Source: Branchiostoma floridae (Eukaryota; Chordata; Leptocardii; Amphioxiformes; Branchiostomatidae). Taken from it: 64,000 nucleotides of DNA. Every line of letters starts with the position of its first letter. The stretch's first letter is position 1. Below are positions 4,701 to 17,672 of this stretch, one piece after another. The notes beneath the pieces were generated by a model. It searched no databases and had not been told where the DNA came from. It was given only the letters and a program-made list of their open reading frames with translations. The stretch is from positions 15,677,993 through 15,741,992 of the forward strand of contig NC_049980.1 in NCBI RefSeq assembly GCF_000003815.2, written 5' to 3'. Position numbers and translations under genes: made by a program.

Positions 4701-7700
4701 CGTACGTCTGGCTGTATCGTCACATGCGATTGGTAGATATGTTGTGGGACTCATCTTTGACCTGGTGGGCAGCATTCTTTGGGGTGGAATTTGGCTACTA
4801 CTGGAGCCATAGACTGCACCATGGTAAGCGTCATGCATACTCGTAGGTAGAAACAGGTAAAGGTGGTCCCATCGCATTTTTGAGGCCTTAGGGGCAGTGG
4901 GTTGTTAACCACAACAAGGAGGTAAAAATTTTAACCTCCTTGACCACAATATCTAGAGCACATAAAATGAACACCAGCAAGGCTACCATTCGTGTATGTC
5001 TGCATGATGACACGGATAAAGAATCTAATTGAATTGTCATTCCTATTTATTTCTGATTTAACACTACATATCATTATTCAATTACTGCATACTTGTGCGG
5101 ATCTTATCAGAAGAATGGCAAAAGTTCAGTAGAGCGAATGTGTTGCCTTTTGCTGTTTATTCCTCTTTGATTGTGATCTGTTTACTTTAGAGGTGAACAT
5201 ACTATGGGCCGCACATCAGGTCCATCACAGCTCCGATGATTACAACATTCTGTCATCACTACGGACATCAGCATTCCAACGCTGTACCTCTTTTGTAAGT
5301 AATGTTGAAACAACAAGCAAAGCATCAGAATCGCAACATTGGTAAAAACAGCCTCGGTGGTGGAGGTACTATCAGCACCACGGACAGGGGCCGACAGCTA
5401 GCAAAGCCAGTGTATGAAGAAAGCTTTAAACCTCACGTATAGGATATAATTTCAGTTCTAATGGCGTTAACAACGATTGAATTTATCATTGACATTGTAG
5501 ATATGCGATTTTTAGCGTTAGTGGTACACAACACTTCAAGAGATGCACTAGTCTCAAGTTCTAGGTTTATTCCAGGAAAAGGATATTGCTGTTTTTCAAT
5601 GTGTCCTGAAGGAAAACGCCGTACACTCTCTATGTTTCCACAGCTCCTGTACTTACCCCTGGCCTTAGCAGTGCCCCCTGCTGCTTTTCTGGTTCATTAC
5701 CAATTGAATCTTCTATATCAGGCTTGGCTACACACAGAGGTTAGTGGTGAAATTATATATAACATAAACGGTTTATAACATAAACATCATTGCTGATGTG
5801 ACTCATGAGCATTCAATACACTCCCACCATTGGCTGGAATTACAGTAGTTCACAGAATGCTTACTCCAGTGGTTAGCGACCCTGCCTCTGGACGAAGAGG
5901 ATAGGAGTTCAAATTGCATACTACTAGAAAGGGCTAAGGTCCCCAGGACAGGACATCTTATTCTCCAAGCAGAGGTTGGGTCGCGGGGATGGTAATGGCC
6001 GGGAGCACAGAGAGCTGGTAAAATTCTCCGGCACTAGTATACCCGCGATCCAACCTCTGCCTAGATTTCAAAATTTCCTAGTATAATGTACCCGTAGATA
6101 ATGAACATATCGCCTGTCTTCTCTGTCTCAACCAGTGGAAGACCCGCTTGTCCAAATTTGCTTTCGCTCTGGCGCTCTGGTGTTCTTTTGTAAAATGCAG
6201 TAGTTAGTTTTTAGTCTTACCTTCGATGATGCTCATGTGTTGACAGCTGCCCTGAACAGTGCTTCCATCCCTTGTGCAGGTGGTTGGTTCCCTGGGTCCC
6301 CTGGAGTACATCCTGAACACACCGACTCACCACAGGGTTCACCACGGTAAGCTCAGATACAATTATTTCCAATTAGTGGTGCGTACCTAAAGCCCTGACT
6401 TGGTCCGGAGCCAAGTCCGGACTTGCAAAAAGCAATCTGTCACTTATATTCCCTTTTTTTGTTCTAAACCGTCTGAAACCTTCCATAGACATATTTCCAT
6501 AGAAATTTGAACTGGGAAAAGACAAACAAAAAACAGTTCGTGTTTACACTGGCTGTCTATCATTTTCATGTATTTTTCACATTGCATTTCAATTCATGCT
6601 AACATGCAATTTTATATGCACCCCCTACCCCCCCCCCCCCCCACCCCCCACCCCCCCAAAAAAATGCTCATAATATGACTTTACGTCCGGACCTGAACCT
6701 GAACTGCTGGACCTGAATCCGGACCTGAAATTGAGTTTAGGTACTCACCACTATTTCCAATTGTGAAGTTGTTGTGTTTGGATATCACTTATGTATTAAA
6801 ATGAAACGTTACCTGTGATTGTACATCTGCTTGGTATTTTTGATAATCTTTTGCGCTATTTCCGTACACAAAGTGAAGACCAGAAAGATAAGAGAGGACT
6901 GATCAAGAGCCTGTTGGTAAGCTCTTTGGTAAACGTTGTGTATAGAATTAGCATATTAAGTATTCACAATTTCATTTCTATTGTCATGGCTTAGAAGCAC
7001 ACTTGAAAACCAATGCACGCAGTACGAGGGTTAGTGCGAGGGTTAGTATGTTCACAAAGTATTATTATCACTATCTGTTCTATGATGGTTAAACTAACGT
7101 GCCCCCTCCTGATTACACCTGACTGTCCCAACAGGCAGGAATCAGATGGGAAAGAACTTTGGCGGAACACTCATCATTTGGGATCGAATATTTGGTGAGA
7201 AAACTTTGGCATTTTATTTTTCTGCGAGCCTTGTGAATCAGGGGTGGTATTTTGCGAATAGTGTAATCCATTCTATCTGTTTGAAACTAGGATGGGTCAC
7301 TCATGAGGTGGTGGGAGGGTGTCACATGACGAATTCAGGTTGCTATTATTTACCAGTGTCCCTTCAATTGCATCATCAATACTTCCAAATTGTAAAGCTG
7401 GGAGTTCAAAGTTTGAGCAGATGTAAAATGTTACAACTGTGTGATGATGAAACTCCCAAAACGCTTTTCCTACACGCTCTCTGTCAGAAAGTAGTCTGGA
7501 TGCCACGTGGGCCTGTTGCCCTACATACAAGCCTCTGCATTCAAATCTAAACAACATTATAAAACTCGCAAGGGCTTTATAATGAGTTGCATTATTTACC
7601 ACAGGCACTTTTCACCAGCAGAGTGGACCACTGATGTATGGTTTAAGAACTGCTGTCAACACGTGGGACCCAGTCTGGATACAGGTGAAGATACAGATAG

Positions 7701-9221
7701 TAAGATTCCTTGATGTGAATGAACGATTCTGCAGTATATCTGCACGAACATTGAATTTTGTTGTCACAAATCACACTTGTCTGGTTCCTAGGTCCTCCAC
7801 ACAAAAATAGCTCAATACAAAGATACAGGCATGCCATCATAACCCAGCAAAAAAAAACTGAACAAATTTCGAGCTTGAAGAAACTGGGAAATCCTTAATG
7901 TTGATTCCAAACAAATGGGTTGAATAATTATTTTTGCACCATGCAGTTTCATCACTTTGTGTGTATCTGGAATACATTCTGGAAAACCCCTGGGCTGTGG
8001 AACAAGTTGCGTGTGCTGTTTGCCAAGCCGGGCCAGGCAGCCGGCAAACCTCAACTGGGATCTATCCAGGGGCTTCATAAGGTTGGGTCATCACAGCTCA
8101 AATGGCTTCATTTCGTCATCTTGAAAACTGTTTAATGTTAGATCAAAAGATATCCATACTGCATTTTATACAAAAGCACATCATCATTATATTGGGTGAG
8201 TTGCCTGCGCCAAGTCACCCTCTCTGTCCTGCCGTCCCTGTTCCCACCTGAAAAGGAATTCAGTAAACATACAGTGTATATGTGTGACGACTAACGTTAC
8301 CGTAAGTTAGTCATTTGTGTACTGAGGTTTCTTCCACAATAAGTTAAAAGAGACATATTTTTAAAACAGGAGAATCCGTGATGTTTTTCTTTATTCTCTA
8401 GATACAGCAAGCACCAAAATACGACAGTAAGGTATCCACGGGTTGGGTGTTCTACGTACTGATGCACTTTCTACTCGCTTTGCTGACTTCCAGGACAATT
8501 CCCAAGGTAGCTTCATTTTACTTTGGCTTAATTAGATAACTTGATAATCTCCATATCTGCTCCTATGTGATACATGCTGTGCTTAGTCGTACCAGTAACA
8601 CCTTAATCTTGTATCGTACTTGAAACACCCTTACTTGTACCACCAAATCTTACCCTTGTTCCATCATTGCAAACTCTCTCAGTTTCATACATGATCATTA
8701 CAGTTTAATATTTCACTCTCTTTTTCATAGGATATGAGTATTTTGGCAACCGTCGGTAAACTGGCAACTATGATGTGGACACTGTCTTGCATGGCAGCAA
8801 TTCTGGACTGCAGGTAATATAACTACCTGATAAGCTTGGAGGCAAGTTCTATTTTCCTGAAACTGAATACAGTGTACTTAAGGCTGGATGCCATCCTATT
8901 ACAGGGCTCGCCCTAATTTTTTAGAGCGGGCCTGGTAGTAGTCGGATGGCACCCAGGCTAATTTGCAAACAATGTCAGGTAACATTTGCACAAATCTGCA
9001 TTTATTTCCATTTCAGGCCAACTGCTCCGCTCATGGAACTGTCCCGTTGTGTGTCCGTGTTGGGAACAGGTTTCCTACTGTGCCTCTCTGGTGGCCTGCT
9101 GACGTCACAGCCTCTCCTGACAGCTGTCACTCTGGCCTGTCACGCAGGGTCTGCAGTCCTCTGGAGTGTGGATCTGATGGGGACGGGTTTTCTGCGCGTT
9201 AAAAATCTGCGCGCGCGTTAA
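1738..9221 (+). CDS. AGMO: Alkylglycerol monooxygenase (TMEM195/AGMO), 12 exons
   Basis: This is a membrane di-iron, tetrahydrobiopterin-dependent enzyme that cleaves the O-alkyl bond of ether lipids (known for the family). Coding exons: 1738-1878, 4214-4341, 4672-4823, 5191-5294, 5644-5739, 6280-6346, 7135-7194, 7605-7684, 7947-8081, 8402-8506, 8731-8813, 9017-9221. All junctions are GT..AG, and the 1356 nt stay in one frame, giving 451 residues (human about 445). Exon 1 carries TPSETTFEALEEVPNYVKQ, the conserved AGMO N-terminus. The fatty-acid-hydroxylase histidine motifs are present: HRLHH (exon 3), HQVHH (exon 4) and HHRVHH (exon 6). Exon 7 gives FGGTLIIWDRIFG and exon 9 gives FHHFVCIWNTFWKTPG. 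Several hydrophobic segments fit a multipass ER protein. The start is the ATG at 1738, because an in-frame TTG at 1726 is not a likely eukaryotic start. Oddity: the last 11 codons and the stop lie inside a repeat element. Confidence 0.95.
2355..3276. promoter_or_regulatory. Cluster of five CACGTG E-boxes in AGMO intron 1
   Basis: Exact CACGTG occurs at 2355, 2425, 2443, 3020 and 3271. Four of the five are preceded by a pyrimidine, and three share the context ATTCACGTG. CACGTG is bound by bHLH factors of the Myc, USF, TFE and CLOCK types. The shared context could also mean that short repeats were copied, so a regulatory role is only an inference. Confidence 0.3.
3325..3525. repeat. Imperfect tandem duplication of about 100 bp
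   Basis: Two related segments in AGMO intron 1 share ACGTGTTGAA, then TGCTRAAYTGTTT, AAGTAAATA and a CGTSCTTGGGCARGGTAC end. The two copies are noticeably diverged. No coding potential. Confidence 0.5.
4908..4949. mobile_element. Tiny CAAGG hairpin element, copy 1, with 7 bp direct repeats
   Basis: A 28 bp near-palindrome at 4915-4942 opens CAAGGAGGTAAAAA and closes TTTTAACCTCCTTG, so 13 of 14 arm positions pair. It is bounded on both sides by the exact 7 bp repeat ACCACAA (4908-4914 and 4943-4949), which looks like a target-site duplication. It lies in AGMO intron 3. See the copies at 12647, 15244 and 15839. Confidence 0.6.
5866..5945 (+). repeat. tRNA-derived SINE-like fragment
   Basis: The A-box-like TGGTTAGCGACC is followed about 35 bp later by the B-box-like GGAGTTCAAATT. 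This spacing is typical of a tRNA-derived SINE head. It lies in AGMO intron 5. The box B is degenerate, so it is probably an old copy. Confidence 0.4.
5961..6062. mobile_element. Diverged member of the TCTCCAAGCAGAGG foldback family
   Basis: The left end TTCTCCAAGCAGAGGTTGGG and the right end ATCCAACCTCTGCCTAGA are inverted relatives of the ends of the elements at 10321 and 17452. The inner part also folds back (TCGCGGG against CCCGCGA). The interior differs from the other two copies. It lies in AGMO intron 5. Confidence 0.55.
6366..6761. mobile_element. hAT-type miniature element with 8 bp target duplication
   Basis: The element occupies 6374-6753 (380 bp). Its inverted ends are TAGTGGTGCGTACCTAAA and TTTAGGTACTCACCACTA. 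The exact 8 bp repeat TTTCCAAT flanks it at 6366-6373 and 6754-6761. TAGTGGTG ends with an 8 bp duplication are characteristic of hAT transposons. No open frame is present, so it is non-autonomous. The interior holds TCCGGAC motifs near both ends and a C-rich run at about 6618-6657. It lies in AGMO intron 6. Confidence 0.8.
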
Positions 9222-9885
9222 AAATCTGCGCGCGCGTTAAAAATCTGCGCGCGCGTTAAAAATCTGCGCGCGCGTTAAAAATCTGCGCGCGCGTTAAAAA
9301 TCTGCGCGCGCGTTAAAAATCTGCGCGCGCGTTAAAAATCTGCGCGCGCGTTAAAAATCTGCGCGTTAAAAATCAAGTTGTTTTTTTCAGAAAATGCGCA
9401 GGGAGAAATTCTTGAAAATGTGACCCCATTATATGATTTTCAATCCGTTACCTGATTTTTTGGTTTGAAAACTTAAAAATGAAAAGCCCCTGATTTTAGG
9501 TCCCTTGAGAATAGGTTACTTTGCATCTCCTGAATATTTCAAAATCACTTAAATTTGACACAAATACATGGGAAAATTACTAATATGAGGCTTGGTATTG
9601 TAAAATATAACAGCTTGAGGCTTTTCTCCATTCTGCAAGCTTCATTCCATCTTTTCTCAAGCAGATTGTTCGCATGCAAATTGGACTACAGAAGGGGATA
9701 TTGTACTCAAGAATTATACATTATGATACTTAATTTTAACTTGTGTTCACTTTTTTAAGCTTTTAAGTTTAAAGCTGCAAAAAAAGTTTTTAAATCCCCA
9801 GGGAATCAGCTAATTTCCATATTTTAACGCGCAGATTTTTAACGCACAAGTTTTAACGCGTAAATTTTTAACGCGCACAAAACCC
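9185..9885. mobile_element. Miniature element with repeat-array ends, inserted in the last AGMO exon
   Basis: The left end GGGTTTTCTGCGCGTTAAAA and the reverse complement of the right end, GGGTTTTGTGCGCGTTAAAA, are nearly identical. Inside the left end is a tandem array, and the right end carries degenerate inverted copies of the same unit. This symmetry, with no coding capacity between, indicates a non-autonomous DNA transposon of about 700 bp. I see no clear target-site duplication. The AGMO reading frame enters the left end and stops within the second repeat unit (TAA at 9219-9221). Confidence 0.6.
9191..9377. repeat. 19 bp tandem repeat, about nine copies
   Basis: The unit is TCTGCGCGCGCGTTAAAAA. 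Internal copies are identical, while the first and last units lack one GCGC step. Near-perfect copies suggest recent expansion. Alternating CG runs of this kind could adopt Z-DNA (inference). Confidence 0.9.
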
Positions 9886-10312
9886 CAACCTTATAAGATG
9901 AAGTCACCATGTCATGTGTTGGAAAGTCCTACTACACCCTACTAGTCTCACATCTCTGAAATCAGCAGATAGTAATACTGTGTGTTCAGATTACGGTTCT
10001 GAAAAAAATAGGTCGGTTGGTAGTATAGCTATGGATGATGTTTTTTTTTTCTTTATGATTTCAGCCAGTTTAGCAATGTGAAAATAAATGCACCAGAGTG
10101 CTAGTATTTTCAACATCGTATTTTGATAGCATTTGACATCACAGCAAAACTGGACTGGTGAGAGATGTTGGAAAACGTCACTCTACGAGGCTCTCAGATC
10201 GAAACTCCTTGTCAGAGGTCGACCCCCCAAACGGCAGCAGGTTTTTGCCATGGTCAGTCGGGTGACCAGAAACCGACATTTTTCTAGGCCTGATCGTCCT
10301 CACCGTGCAGCA
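9886..10312. other. Downstream of AGMO, nothing recognised
   Basis: This AT-rich sequence may hold the original AGMO 3' UTR displaced by the insertion at 9185-9885. I see no exon, RNA gene or repeat that I can support. Confidence 0.4.
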
Positions 10313-10528
10313 CCAAGAATTGCTCTCCAAGCAGAGGTTAGGCTCCGGCTGTTTTTTGACGTTTTTCTTAGTCGTTTTTACCGGGCTTTCTATTTTGTAT
10401 TGAATCTTGTATGTTATGTTTTGACAATATAAGATACAATACAAAATGCAAAGCCCGATAAAAACGACTAAAGAAAACGTTAAAAAAACAGTTGGAACCT
10501 AACCTCTGCTTGGAGAGTAACCAAGAAT
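10313..10528. mobile_element. Foldback MITE, hAT-like, with 8 bp target duplication
   Basis: The 200 bp element at 10321-10520 is an almost complete inverted repeat. Its ends are CTCTCCAAGCAGAGGTTAGG and the matching GGAACCTAACCTCTGCTTGG. The inner arms AGTCGTTTTTACCGGGCTTT and AAAGCCCGATAAAAACGACT also pair. The exact 8 bp repeat CCAAGAAT flanks it (10313-10320 and 10521-10528), as in hAT elements. Relatives lie at 17452-17672 and 5961-6062. Confidence 0.8.
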
Positions 10529-11168
10529 AGCTGACATCGGTATCGGCTCCATTTACGTAACATGAAATAAAGTTGACATTACTACCGGGCCTACTGTTAA
10601 GCTGCTAGCTCATTTACAACCTTACATAACTCACCTAGTCGACCTTCCTGCTGGTTTGGTACTTTCAATGGCATATTTTTACGTGTTCAATCGTATAGAA
10701 AGGTAATACCCTTTGGAACCCTGTGGAAACCACTTTGCGTGCTGAGCTCATCTGAACATGACGGTAAAGTGATTCAATTCATGGCGACACCAGTAGCCAA
10801 AATACCGAACTAGTAATACTAGGTCTAAAATCGGACACGTCAATCTGTCCATCCTGTGTATATATTACGTCACATACAAAAATATTATAACACTCCAACA
10901 ATATATTGAGATACTTTAATGTGTTTGTTGGGTTTGTCTACAGCAATACTAGGATGCATAGACAGAATTAGTGAGAAAGTTGCAATAACGAATAAAACAA
11001 GAAATTTAAAAAAAAATCTCAAATATGCCACAGAGTCATGAGATCGTTGGTTTCTTGTTGCATTTTTAAAAATCTTTCTTGCTGTTTTTCTTTGAGGAGA
11101 AAGGCCCGGGCTGTGTGTCTGGAACATTACCCACTACGGTTCGATCCGTCTTCCTGTCGTCTACTATA
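10529..11168. other. Intergenic, nothing recognised
   Basis: Sequence between two transposon copies. Open frames are short, none shows a known motif, and no tandem repeats are seen. Confidence 0.4.
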
Positions 11169-11658
11169 TTAAGGTCTCATTGATGTATTACTCCGCGAGT
11201 GGGTAATTAAAGAGATCCGAGCCAAAAATGAACGGCTGCACGGACGCATGTTTTGAGCGGTGAGAAATTTCCTTTTAGCCAGCGGAACTGACGTCAAAAG
11301 TTAGATTGGTGAAAGCTTATTTGTAACTGAAGAAATTAGCAGGTAAAGTTTTGCAGCCGCGCGCTAGGTCGGAGGTACACAGTCGTGGGTTCTGAGTGGT
11401 GCGGTTGTACACTAGCAGCAAAAAAGTGCCTTTTGTGGGGATTGACTAATCGTAGTTTGTAATTGCTATAAAAAAAGTTCCTATGTATAGTTTACGTTGG
11501 CAATTTTTTCCCACGATATAGAGTAAATGTGCTCGACATAGAATGAAAAATCTGCTGAAATTTCACGTAGCTTCATTATAAACGCGCCCATTTTAACCAC
11601 GAATTATAACTATGGAATTAAGTCTATGGGAAGAAGAAACTCATCAATGAGACCTTAA
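11169..11658. mobile_element. Miniature element flanked by TTAA (piggyBac-like target)
   Basis: The inverted ends GGTCTCATTGATG (11173-11185) and CATCAATGAGACC (11642-11654) match exactly over 13 bp. TTAA flanks both sides (11169-11172 and 11655-11658). A TTAA duplication is the hallmark of piggyBac-type (also Kolobok-type) elements. The 482 bp body has no transposase, so it is non-autonomous. Confidence 0.7.
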
Positions 11659-12639
11659 CGTCATCCACCCTTCGCAGCATTACCGGGCAACTGTCTGACC
11701 ACGCGAGCTTGAACGAGTATCCCACATCTGTGCCTCTTTCTATCAGACTCGCTGAGCGACTGCACAACAATCAAATTGAAGTTGTATCTAAAAGGAACGA
11801 AGCGCACAAAACGTATTAAGTTAGTTTTTGTAAATCTTAATCTACGAAACCCGTTGTGCGATCTACCAAACCTTTTCCGCAGCGCCGCGGCCCCAGCCTC
11901 TGGAGAAGTTGGGTTGATTATGTAACTACGCTGGAAGCTGGCTACCATACATATAAGGCACACAACACGTTATGTAAGTAAGTACAGGAAATCGATGATT
12001 TCCCACTGGTCTCTCCAAGATCCAAGATCATAGTCGTGCAGCGTGTGCAGGCCGCGTTCTCCCCGCGACAGAGCCGATCAATGGTTTGCATACTAGTACG
12101 TAAACGCAAGGGCATTTATTCATTTCTGATTATATAATGTCCATTTTGTTTATCTCTGAGTTTTTTCGGCCGAGTGTTTTTTTCTGTCGAGTTGTGGCCC
12201 CGGTTTCTTTCACTCACATCTCCAGAGCAATCTGAATTCAGTGTCCAAGTCTCAGCGCCATACAAGAATATCAACAAGACGGGAGATCAAAAGGAGAATT
12301 TTGGTCGCCATATCATTGTTACAACAGATGTGTTTGAGTTTCGAGGTCGACAATGCAAGAGTAGACTTTGCACTGCTTCCAAAAAAAGAAGTCAAACCCA
12401 ACCTGTTAGAAATAGCCAACACTAGTATTAGAGTAGAATATTGTTCATGACTGTCCATTGTCACTATGTATATACCGTGTAGATTTGTACAGTCTGACTG
12501 CACACACAGACACACACACAAACACACCGACCCTCGTGAAAACATAACCCACATGAAATGGATAAAAACAGAGGCACCTGACTTCAGGATGTTTTTAATT
12601 CCTCTCGAAAGTACGTTCGCTGGACACATGTAATGCTAC
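11659..12639. other. Intergenic, no supported gene
   Basis: Several small open frames on both strands look random. A short CA-rich tract lies near 12500-12525. There is no recognisable domain, RNA gene or transposon end. Confidence 0.4.
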
Positions 12640-12685
12640 GTGCGTGCAAGGACGTTACATCAGGATGTAACGTCCTTGGTGCGTG
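12640..12685. mobile_element. Tiny CAAGG hairpin element, copy 2, with 7 bp direct repeats
   Basis: A perfect palindrome at 12647-12678 has 15 bp arms, CAAGGACGTTACATC and GATGTAACGTCCTTG, separated only by AG. It is bounded on each side by the exact 7 bp repeat GTGCGTG (12640-12646 and 12679-12685). It lies 29 bp outside the large inverted-repeat element that starts at 12714. Confidence 0.7.
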
Positions 12686-15236
12686 TGAGGAATGTTGCAA
12701 CAGATATTGTGATGGGTGTTCGGAATTACCGGTCCGGGCCGGACCGCGGAATTACCGGTCCGGTCTGTTTAGGGGGCGGAAAAACCGGTCCGGTCTGTTC
12801 TGCGTTTATCTACGCCCCCTGGCAGGAAATAGCAGAATTGCAATTGGTATGCTGTGTTCCCGTATATCACAACATGAAGCGCATTGATTGGATGCATGGG
12901 GTCCGCATGCTAATGTCACTGTTTACGTCAGATCGATCGGCGACGGTTAACATAAACATTGCACTGGTGGAAAGTTTGCCATGCCCGATACGCTGAACGG
13001 AACCTACTGCCAACAACACTCAAAGCAGTAAAACCGACACTAGCTTGAGACAAATAATAGGTCGACAATGATCAGAGTATGATCAGAGTGAGATTTTCTT
13101 GTTGGGCCGGCTTTCATTTCATATATGGAATCGTGAAAATAGGATCGTGATCAAAGAACTGAAGTCTGGGAAATCTTCAGACACTTGCAATCGCAATCGT
13201 CATTTTGCATTTCATCATGCAAAAATTCAATATACCTATCAAGAAAAGCCAGCTTGACAAACCATATCACATTCTCTATATAAATGACAGATTTTACCGT
13301 GATCGATATTGATTGTTGTCTTACACTTGTCGCTAAAGACGAATATTTTTGTTTTGAAGACAACAATCCCATGTAATCACCTGCAAAAGCTCGCACGCCG
13401 ATCGGAAAGACGCCCGTGTAGTTTTCAGAGCCGAAACCGTGAGTCGTGGGTTACCCTAATATATTCGAATTAAACCAAGGCAAAGTGCCAAATAGTCATC
13501 TTAATTTGTATGTTGGAAATAGATTTGACAGGAATTGACCAAAGGTGGGCTTTCAATGTTTCGGCAGTCTCGTGTCGGCCAGCTGAACGCGTGGGAAAAA
13601 GTTGAAACAAGAGTGACAGTCCGGGGGTGCCTGGCGTCTTACACGGAGCGCCGCGAGTCTGTGACTGTCGCAGACTCGTGCTGATTTCGTTACACATCGA
13701 GTGCGTAGAATTAGATAATGATAATAATACCACAGAGAACCTAAAATACAGTGGTTTGTTCTTTGGAGCTCTTGGCTTGATTCATTTCCAAAAGTAAACA
13801 ACACTTGTATTTTAATTCAAATCCCACAGACCGACAATGCCACAGCCTGGCTGTTACTATGGTTGTGATTGTGATTGGCAGTCGTGCGGCTTCCTCTGTA
13901 ATGATATCCCTAACCTACTTAGCATATCGGTACCCTTTGATCAGGTCGACAGAAGTCCACAAACTGCCGAACGATAGCTTTTCAGGATCGTGTAGAACTT
14001 CCTACATTACGTTAGAAATCGGAGACAATTTCTAATATTCCCATTACAAATGTCTCACTGAGTATAACCTTTTTTTCTTTGCAAGTGGAAATATAAGGTT
14101 TGCCTGAGTTGGTTATTTACCATATACATGTACAAGGTGAAATTGTAGAACCATATTATGCCCGGTCATAACTTTCTATAGATCATTTCCGGTCATTTCT
14201 ATAGATAAGCTGATGCTCATTTGTTAGGAATTGATTGATATCATAGCTACTTTTCTAGAGGCGGACTTTTCGGATATTTTTTTCTTCTTAGAAAGCCGGA
14301 ATATATTTAATATACATTGTGTAATACAATATACAATTTACAATATACATTGTATAATGTAACCATATGCCCGGATATACTATGTATTTCTAGATAAGCT
14401 GATGGTCCTTGTTTAATTAGTTATTGATATCACAACTACTTTACTAGACGATAACTATGTTTTCATCCGACGACTTTGCTTGAAATAATGCTGCTGGTCG
14501 TCGAGGGTGCCGAGGGGCCCAACAAGACCTACCTGTTCCTGACGGAGCTTCCTGACGGAACATCGCTGACTGCCGCTCCTGATCGTCGCACCGACGAAAT
14601 CAATACAAGGCATTCTTTCAACTTTATGTGCTTTAATGTATTTGTTGATCGTATATGTCTGTTCAATGTTGTGTTGTTTGGCGTAACTAATTAACCGTAT
14701 CTGTTGAAACTTGTGAAGTCGCAACTAATATTACACTTACTTCTATGTATATACTACATACACTACATACAAAATGTACTATTATTAGGTAGCTACATTT
14801 CTAAGTCAGAATAAAGGGATTCGGGGTTCCATCCGTTGCACACTGCTGATCGTCGGGGGTGCAGCTCCACCAAGAAGCCCTAGCCTCTACCAGGCTTCGC
14901 GGATCGGTGGTTTAATTGTAGAAAATGGACAAATAGAGTCAATGGTACGCTAGGGGAGTCAGCCGGCTAGAGGAGTTGTTTTCCTCGCCGACGGCCTGGA
15001 GTACATTCAACCTTGCAGCGATCCTAGATTCTGATGTCCTGGTTTAACAACTGACACTAACATGAGGCAATAACTGTCATGAGCTCTTGATTTCAAAATC
15101 TTGATATAAAAAAATAGCATTATAGAAGTCCATCGTCCATATATTAAAAAAATTGCATTTCCGATTCATACTGCAAGAAATGTCGAGAGGGGGTTGTATG
15201 AATGAGCCCCAAAACAAAAGAACATATAATCTTCTG

Positions 15237-15281
15237 CTTGTACCAAGGACGTTACATCAGATGTAACGTCCTTGCTTGTAC
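15237..15281. mobile_element. Tiny CAAGG hairpin element, copy 3, with 7 bp direct repeats
   Basis: The palindrome at 15244-15274 has the same 15 bp arms as copy 2 (CAAGGACGTTACATC and GATGTAACGTCCTTG), with one A between them. It is flanked by a different exact 7 bp repeat, CTTGTAC (15237-15243 and 15275-15281). It lies inside the 12714-17186 element. Confidence 0.7.
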
Positions 15282-15831
15282 AAAAATATCGCTGTTAACA
15301 GTGGTGACGATGTACCCCCATTTTAAACCTTGTTTATTGATTCTATAATCTACAACTACAGTGTAGCTGCTGAAAATTATAGGTGAGAAACTGTTCCAGC
15401 TCCTTTAATTTGGAGAATACACATGTACACATCATAAAACGTTTAAAACCTGGAAGGTAAGTTCATACGAGAGCTTTCCATCATCATTGTGCAGCTACCA
15501 GATCGACCATCATCTATTCCAAATGTGGAAATACGGTAGGTACATCGCTAAATGTAAGATGAACTTCCATGCCTTTGTCATCTTAAGTCGCGGTGGCACC
15601 ATATATCAGTATAAATCACAACTGAATCTGTCTAACAATTTGTGCACGCCTGTTGAACTTTACGATGTGGGTTTACGATACATGCTATTCCAAAATACCT
15701 AAAATATATTAATCGGTACTAAATATCGCTATGAAATAAAGTAAACCAAGAAACATAATCAAACACTGTGGAAAAACAAGCCCCGTGCTGATAGTTGTAT
15801 ATAGCACAGGCCCATTCTTTGAAAACATGCC

Positions 15832-15865
15832 GTCAAACCAATGCGATTAACCTCCTTGGTCAAAC
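15832..15865. mobile_element. Tiny CAAGG element, copy 4, left arm lost, 7 bp repeats kept
   Basis: The 20 bp segment CAATGCGATTAACCTCCTTG (15839-15858) keeps the right arm of copy 1 (TTAACCTCCTTG) but has a divergent left arm. It is flanked by exact GTCAAAC repeats (15832-15838 and 15859-15865). It was probably a full hairpin that lost bases. Confidence 0.5.
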
Positions 15866-16731: not shown

Positions 16732-17451
16732 ATCGACCGCTCTTCACGTGATACCGTCCCGTAAATACGGCCGTATTACGATCGGATTTACGGCGTGTAC
16801 ACGATTATGCTAATCGTAATCGCCCCATCGTAATCTACGATAACGTTAGTGTTCAAAAGTGACTGTTTTACTACAGTGAGTGTTGTTGGCAGTAGGTTCC
16901 GTTCAGTGCTTCGGTCATGGCAAACTTTCCACCAGTGCAATGTATATGTTAACCGTCGCCGATCGATCTGACGTAAACAGTGACATTAGCATGCAGACCC
17001 CCATACATCCAATCAGTGCGCTCCATGTTGTGATATACAGGAACACACCATACAACATGCAATTCTGTTCAATTCTGCCAGGGGGCGTAGCTACACGCAG
17101 AACAGGTCGGACCGGTTTTTCCGCCCCCAAACCAGACCGGACCGGTAATTCCGCGGTCCGGACCGGACCGGTAATTCCGAACACCCGTTTGACTGATTTA
17201 TGTTACAATTTTTAAGACCATATATCCGAAATAAAGCGCTTTAATACCAACAAGCTTTCGATCAGTCCTCTGATCCTTCTCAAGTTGAAATGACCCAGAG
17301 CCTTTGATCATGTATGATCTTGAGGTCAACAAGCCCGCACGCGACTTCATCATGTGTCCGACAATCTGTGTCAAAGGTCAACATACGCTCTTACGTTCGA
17401 GCGTACGACGGCCTGTGTGATGTGTGTAATAGTGCAAGGAGGTTTATAAAA

Positions 17452-17672
17452 CTACTCTCCAAGCAGAGGTTAGGCTCTGGCTGTTTTTTAAAACGTTTTT
17501 TTAGTCGTTTTTATCGGGCTATCTATTTTGTAATTTTTCTTGAAGTATGCCAGCCAAACTTGAGTCAAACTTCAGTTAGGTTTTGACACAGCAAGATAAA
17601 ATACAAAATAGAAAGCCCGATGAAAACGACTAAAAAAACAGAGCCAGAGCCTAACCTCTGCTTGGAGAGTAG
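17452..17672. mobile_element. Foldback MITE, second full copy
   Basis: The ends CTACTCTCCAAGCAGAGGTT and AACCTCTGCTTGGAGAGTAG are inverted. The inner arms (AGTCGTTTTTATCGGGCT and AGCCCGATGAAAACGACT) match those of the element at 10321. The middle carries extra sequence compared with that copy. No clear target duplication is seen. Confidence 0.75.

Follow-up and report, generated by a model that had tools for sequence, protein, structure and literature searches.

Within a 64,000-nucleotide stretch of the Branchiostoma floridae genome (the window; NC_049980.1, positions 15,677,993 to 15,741,992) lie four short elements that begin with CAA, end with TTG and are each flanked by their own exact 7-bp repeat, and the question that they raise is what left them there. 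A sequence-only reading of the window had proposed that an almost interior-free hairpin was itself the transposing unit. We find all four elements and their flanks in place, with one correction: the second and third are perfect hairpins, whereas the first and fourth join unequal pieces of two ends. We are nearly certain that these hairpins are excision footprints (“scars”) of P-superfamily DNA transposons; most likely, the mobile unit was not the hairpin.

4915..4942, no strand assigned: scar 1, CAAGGAGGTAAAAATTTTAACCTCCTTG; 9 nt of one end, a 5-nt joint and 14 nt of the other end (against the end consensus)
4908..4914 (left) and 4943-4949 (right), no strand assigned: target-site duplication of scar 1, ACCACAA, 7 bp
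12647..12678, no strand assigned: scar 2, 32 bp, from a CAAGGACGTTACATC-ended relative
12640..12646 (left) and 12679-12685 (right), no strand assigned: target-site duplication of scar 2, GTGCGTG, 7 bp
15244..15274, no strand assigned: scar 3, 31 bp, same subfamily as scar 2, joint one G shorter
15237..15243 (left) and 15275-15281 (right), no strand assigned: target-site duplication of scar 3, CTTGTAC, 7 bp
15839..15858, no strand assigned: scar 4, CAATGCGATTAACCTCCTTG; 3 nt of one end, a 5-nt joint and 12 nt of the other end (against the end consensus)
15832..15838 (left) and 15859-15865 (right), no strand assigned: target-site duplication of scar 4, GTCAAAC, 7 bp

When the window was scanned for palindromes with arms of at least 8 nt and exact flanking repeats of 6-10 bp, the scan returned scars 1 to 3 and, unrelated to them, two CGG palindromes flanked by 9-bp repeats; under the same settings, two mononucleotide shuffles of the window gave no match. 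The fourth scar was missed because only about 3 nt of one of its ends is kept. It has the same 7-bp structure as the other three. A count free of the arm requirement took in every CAA...TTG interval of 18-40 bp that the window contains (707 in total). Abutting exact repeats of 0, 1, 2, 3, 4, 5, 6 and 7 bp occur 473, 164, 43, 16, 4, 2, 1 and 4 times, respectively: the numbers fall off cleanly and then jump at a length of exactly 7, and this jump consists of the four elements. No parent element for the CAAGGACGTTACATC-type scars (2 and 3) was found.

The pattern extends across the 513-Mb genome. The end motif CAAGGAGGTTAA occurs 3,393 times versus 41 for a reversed-pattern control (~80-fold). 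Around it there is a strong excess of 7-bp repeats, as the sequence-only reading had suggested testing: with at most one mismatch and within 13-60 bp, they accompany 64 of 99 contexts, against a mean of 8.4 and a maximum of 19 in 200 shuffled pairings, and exact repeats accompany 42 of the 99 (shuffled mean 0.85, maximum 4). Nearly all of the 99 contexts lie in the first 12.7 Mb of a single contig. Copies of the 7-mer flank the end motif and behave as real target-site duplications; they carry a target palindrome, GTNWNAC, with the fuller form T..GTNWNAC..A, and 22 of the 64 contain a mismatch. We suspect that the 35 contexts with no 7-bp repeat within 60 bp lost one side to deletion, have decayed or sit as copies within other repeats. 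By extrapolation, the genome probably holds well over a thousand scars.

The sequence-only reading had also suggested looking for longer, transposase-encoding elements with the same ends. Such elements exist, and two are complete:

C19 element: 8,442 bp, 31-bp perfect inverted repeat, CTCTAAC on both sides
C11 element: 8,684 bp, 38-bp perfect inverted repeat, ATGACTT on both sides

Their terminal inverted repeats start with CAAGGAG, in keeping with the CA...TG ends of the P superfamily, and their exact 7-bp target duplications, equal in length to those of the footprints, agree with the 7 or 8 bp of that superfamily. Judged from sequence, both are predicted to encode P-type transposases. PF21787, the N-terminal half of the TNP-like RNase H domain, matches at E 8.6e-22 and 6.5e-21 in the two elements, and PF21789, its C-terminal piece, at 3e-8 and 3.3e-7, all above cut-off; between the two halves, in the right order and spread over two exons in each element, lies the GTP-binding insertion PF21788, with one of its four pieces above cut-off (E 1.9e-5) and three below it (0.00037-0.00064). 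Sequence searches of the PDB gave no transposase match, and the AlphaFold model of P0001, the C19 protein, has a mean pLDDT of 31.9, too poor for a comparison of catalytic residues. These are two-gene elements, carrying a second gene.

How much of an element a scar retains can be measured most clearly at one end type, RA (CAAGGAGGTTAAAGAATCAC), for which we read the first 23 of 88 sites. Eight continue into the same longer element (98-100% identical over ~100 bp), each behind a different upstream flank; 14 are footprints and one is a duplicate locus. The 21st base of the longer element, A, is present in none of the 14 footprints; the kept inverted repeat thus has a sharp maximum, of the kind that a long staggered cut would set, for the RA end type only. 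The arms of a scar come from two distinguishable element ends: all eight typable arms of at least 17 nt opposite an RA arm are of a second type, LA, known from scars alone, and none is RA. The link from RA to the transposase rests on a 5' alignment, in which the RA-ended copy L156 aligns with C19 and C11, starting at CAAGGAG and continuing across the stretch upstream of the transposase; no transposase was seen in the RA-ended copies themselves, L155 being partly masked and L156 read for 0.5 kb. At another end type, LB, no longer element was recognised among the 46 of 73 places read, 21 of which lie in one dispersed repeat and the other 25 of which share nothing beyond a run of T.

The interiors of the scars also bear on the idea that the hairpins were miniature transposons (MITEs), 20-40 bp long and cut and pasted themselves. 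Exact 7-bp duplications would fit such elements, as would the recurrence of some interiors (for example, one of 39 bp at 5 different loci and one of 37 bp at 3), but the 44 independent two-ended sites comprise 40 different sequences, four of them seen twice, rather than an interior shared by descent. Moreover, several scars retain just 2-5 nt of one end, which a transposase of elements with 31-38 bp repeats would hardly recognise; every long arm found opposite RA belongs to the other type; and the same kind of end sits on multi-kb P-type elements. We therefore regard self-mobile hairpins as very improbable. The interiors are instead read as remnants of both ends of an element, brought together in the manner of end joining. 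Across a broader set of 57 intervals, the retained parts of the ends span 2-21 nt, and at 51 joints they either overlap or are separated by no more than 10 added nucleotides; more than 10 unexplained nucleotides occur in the remaining six, two of which are window scars 2 and 3, of another end type.

Under excision, a P-type element with CAAGGAG ends would insert at the palindromic target T..GTNWNAC..A and duplicate 7 bp. On departure, its transposase would cut with a long stagger, placing the break on one strand ~20 nt inward of each end, so that each chromosome end would keep the 7-bp duplication and a single-stranded tail of up to ~20 nt of terminal inverted repeat. End joining would then trim the tails, pair them at a few bases or add a few, fill in and ligate; two full tails would yield a near-perfect hairpin of ~39 bp, and trimmed tails mostly products of 20-30 bp. 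The recurring 39-bp form would be expected if two 20-nt tails paired by their last C and G. This scheme builds on observed ends, 7-bp duplications, two-ended mosaics, complete elements with a P-type transposase and, at one end type, an upper bound on arm length; from these we infer the strand and order of cutting and the repair pathway, and we assume like behaviour in every subfamily, the one behind window scars 2 and 3 among them. The cut position, as it appears from the scars, is ~20 nt inside the ends. Since the kept ends stop at ~20 nt and P transposase is described as cutting with a 17-nt stagger inside the ends, followed by end-joining repair (PMC7776569, PMC10983969), the hairpins are best read as P-superfamily excision footprints.

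One could also imagine that a host-recruited P-type transposase excises the elements at a developmental stage and that the assembly records somatic joints. Although nothing in the sample of 99 contexts was recognised as the end of an element, against 44 two-ended scars, and the transposase-domain matches found were few (at least three), programmed excision strikes us as scarcely credible: the mismatches in 22 of 64 duplications suggest old inherited joints, some scars lie within a dispersed repeat and are identical in two copies of it, both large transposase genes sit inside complete elements with exact duplications, and 8 of the 23 RA sites are still element ends. Local hairpin-driven duplication or replication slippage without a transposon can be set aside as having a negligible chance of being correct, for although palindromes can nucleate slippage, the duplications are fixed at 7 bp, the target is palindromic, the ends are common to sites genome-wide and complete elements have duplications of equal length.

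Three candidates for the source were also rejected. A 213-bp direct repeat in L027 matched two places in a DNA search, both in L027, and is a local duplication; the “taataacac” sequences have a constant upstream flank and belong to a dispersed repeat, 2 kb or more in length, in which an end or scar is embedded; and KolobokP, reported from lancelets, is excluded by the 3-5 bp duplications described for it (PMC9587614).

The N-terminal region of the C19 protein matches RAG1_imp_bd (E 7.1e-8; scan of P0001), and THAP, usual in the P superfamily and not counted as defining, gave no match in P0001 at E 0.01. We tentatively propose, at somewhat less than even confidence, a recently active P-superfamily lineage with a RAG1-like N-terminal domain replacing THAP, a second convergent gene, a 20-nt stagger and a legacy of well over a thousand scars. 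Should the RAG1_imp_bd match reflect true homology, a P-type transposase and the N-terminal half of RAG1, the immune recombinase, would share ancestry.

Excision scars may pass for tiny transposons, as here, or be overlooked. Each is an independently repaired break whose starting sequence is largely known, and the ~3,400 end motifs therefore provide, for an animal, a large natural collection of inherited end-joining outcomes. The scars also suggest that exit wounds can come to outnumber the element family that left them, in which case counts of intact copies understate past activity. Judging by the 20-nt limit, lineages may differ in the unusually long stagger of their P transposases.

A literature search over titles and abstract openings brought up no report of such scars or of a P-type element with these ends, which leaves absence from print unproven; the features we regard as new are the abundance of scars, the apparent 20-nt cut, the two-gene elements and the RAG1-like N-terminal domain. 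Drosophila P element footprints keep the target duplication and join parts of both inverted repeats. The scars described here do the same by end joining, but with an apparent limit of ~20 nt rather than 17, a 7-bp rather than 8-bp duplication and, by extrapolation, probably well over a thousand instances in one genome. Galileo, a Drosophila member of the P superfamily, is described with a 7-bp duplication and a similar palindromic target, GTANTAC / GTATTAC (PMC4168063), and shares the P-type catalytic core; it differs in its long foldback-like repeats and THAP domain, whereas the elements here have 31-38 bp repeats, a RAG1-like N-terminal region with no THAP detected in the C19 protein, and a second gene. 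Zebrafish THAP9 / Pdre2 likewise combines a P-type transposase with CA...TG ends, as described in PMC10983969, but Pdre2 has an 8-bp duplication and 13-bp repeats. Finally, N-RAG-TP of Aplysia, likened here by its description only (PMC8355894), also carries RAG1 N-terminal-like sequence in a transposon.

The four CAA...TTG hairpins of the window (4915-4942, 12647-12678, 15244-15274 and 15839-15858; scars 1-4) are present with exact 7-bp flanks as the sequence-only reading had described them, and we read them as scars, or footprints, left between 7-bp target duplications by the excision of P-superfamily transposons. When the window's 707 CAA...TTG intervals 18-40 bp long are taken together, counts of abutting exact repeats decay with repeat length and then rise to four at exactly 7 bp, the four cases being these same sites. 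A hairpin scan of the window and twenty 9.9-kb stretches picked around matches to the end motif CAAGGAGGTTAA, with exact flanks of 6-12 bp required, returned 37 rows; 7-bp flanks occur in 12, of which 11 are the CAAGG-ended family, and the remaining rows are mostly tandem repeats with flanks of 6 or 11 bp. When perfect 7-nt arms were required and two transposase loci were added, 14/24 rows had 7-bp flanks, the family accounting for 11/14.

Across the genome (513 Mb, 431 contigs), CAAGGAGGTTAA occurs 1,688 + 1,705 times, versus only 21 + 20 for the reversed pattern. The excess of 7-bp repeats that the same reading had expected around such ends is also found. We kept 99 unique contexts, from the window and further loci nearly all within the first 12.7 Mb of contig C1, after removing matches too close to locus ends. 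The upstream 7-mer recurs 13-60 bp downstream with at most one mismatch in 64/99 (a tally that includes some scars twice, one count per arm), compared with a mean of 8.4 and a maximum of 19 in 200 shuffled pairings; the repeat is exact in 42, against a shuffled mean of 0.85 and maximum of 4. In 35/99 contexts, no 7-bp repeat was found at that distance and mismatch limit. When each scar is counted once and a TG end is required, 44 independent sites remain; they comprise 40 distinct sequences, of which four occur twice. At the rate of 44 in 99 contexts, the 3,393 matches to the 12-mer CAAGGAGGTTAA would represent ~1,500 two-ended scars genome-wide, a figure that presumes that our sample, mainly one contig, is typical.

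Other repeats were noted in passing. The window contains CGG palindromes (CGGTCCGGxCCGGACCG at 12730-12746 and 17154-17170, with exact 9-bp flanking repeats CGGAATTAC / GTAATTCCG), which are a different repeat from the CAAGG-ended family, and a tandem array of the 19-bp unit CGCGCGCGTTAAAAATCTG (9210-9350). At L022:7549-7581, a TGGTTCA...TGAACCA hairpin between exact 7-bp GGGTCCC flanks is possibly a scar from another family.

From our reading of contexts and intervals, four end types recur:

LA end: CAAGGAGGTTAAAGAAAGAG, known here from scar arms
RA end: CAAGGAGGTTAAAGAATCAC
LB end: CAAGGAGGTTAAAAAAGACC(T)
RB end: CAAGGAGGTTAAAAATCACTT

The RA end has 88 genome matches and its reversed control 0. 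Of the first 23 of these 88, 14 are footprints, one is a duplicate locus and eight run into one common sequence (98-100% identity over ~100 bp); the upstream flanks of the eight all differ (8/8), so they are ends of a longer element. The 21st base of that element is absent from the RA footprints (0/14). Where the arm facing RA is at least 17 nt long, it is LA in 8/8, and in a further footprint (L151) the opposite arm is also LA if one extra flanking base is discounted. Two products recur, one of 39 bp at five different loci and one of 37 bp at three; 39 bp would correspond to 20 + 20 - 1, since 20-nt tails ending in C and G could pair by one base.

The LB end has 73 genome matches (reversed control 0), of which we read 46; 21 of these belong to a single dispersed repeat, and the other 25 lie outside it. 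A 7-bp repeat with at most one mismatch is present at 17/25 of the latter. Among the 46/73 places read, no LB parent element was found, and the 25 outside the dispersed repeat have no common continuation past a T run. The dispersed repeat is at least 2 kb long (L076, L077 and 19 more LB 20-mer places; the two copies that we read over a longer stretch are 99.5% identical), with the 20-nt LB end inside an open frame (NNTKEVKKDL). Both long copies have the same double scar and third CAAGG end, and the scars were therefore amplified along with the repeat.

The P-transposase RNase H domain has at least three genome matches, and one P-type transposase used as query gave 39, some of them decayed pieces and some apparently low-complexity. 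Two RA-ended copies (L156 and L155) have 226 bp in common at 99.6% identity and diverge beyond. L156 also aligns with the sequence that precedes each of the two large transposase genes, the alignment of the L156, C19 and C11 sequences beginning at their first bases, CAAGGAG. Longer transposase-encoding elements with the same ends, which the sequence-only reading had suggested looking for, exist; two are complete and have exact 7-bp duplications:

C19:10308832-10317273, complete element, 8,442 bp, 31-bp perfect repeats, CTCTAAC at each side
C11:17071456-17080139, complete element, 8,684 bp, 38-bp perfect repeats, ATGACTT at each side
L032:8677-9762, minus strand, second convergent gene
L033:43-1095, plus strand, second convergent gene
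L032:3692-5992, C19 transposase P0001, RAG1_imp_bd match at residues 29-115 (E 7.1e-8, above cut-off)

Both transposases carry PF21787, PF21788 (split across two exons) and PF21789, in that order; transposases of the P type are characterised by a GTP-binding insertion. The second gene common to the two elements (~350 residues or more, opposite strand, convergent) has no match to any Pfam family.

A wider interval set, which also takes in sites selected by the LB 20-mer and in which a few entries are nested or duplicate, comprises 57 two-ended intervals of 15-48 bp, with exact repeats in 37. All 57 have an element-end piece of 2-21 nt on each side. At 51/57 joints the pieces overlap or no more than 10 nt are added; the six with > 10 nt include window scars 2 and 3, whose end type differs (CAAGGACGTTACATC, known here from scars alone). 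The target is a palindrome, T..GTNWNAC..A, extending partly beyond the duplicated 7 bp (the profile is symmetrised by construction), which we take as the transposase's target preference.

Excerpts of PMC7776569 and PMC10983969 describe a 17-nt staggered cut by P transposase inside the element ends and repair of the donor break via end joining or homologous recombination. With such a stagger, the chromosome can retain the target duplication and each end up to the stagger length; after excision, the duplicated target and no more than that length of both ends would stay behind. Retained ends of this kind predict two-ended hairpins, capped arms, variable joints and duplications of the element's length, all as seen. 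The arm limit suggests that in this lineage the stagger is ~20 nt; which strand is cut, and by which pathway the break is repaired, we infer.

Some scars are arranged differently. L046:61-106 and L066 have a tandem pair with one common duplication (CTAAAAG...CTAAAAG...CTAAGAG), the pattern that a second insertion into the same target would give. A perfect inverted repeat with 32-nt arms at L027:3077-3141 is made up of two 19-bp scars that are oppositely oriented and separated by 15 bp. The one-ended CAAGGAGGTTTATAAAAC at window 17435-17455 is possibly a one-sided scar.

THAP was not found in P0001; where it would stand, the N-terminus has a RAG1 importin-binding-like region, which recalls N-RAG-TP, from which the N-terminus of RAG1 has been proposed to derive. 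The target site also has a counterpart within the P superfamily: an excerpt of PMC4168063 gives 7-bp duplications at GTANTAC for Galileo, a target close to that of the amphioxus scars, whose duplications are likewise 7 bp long.
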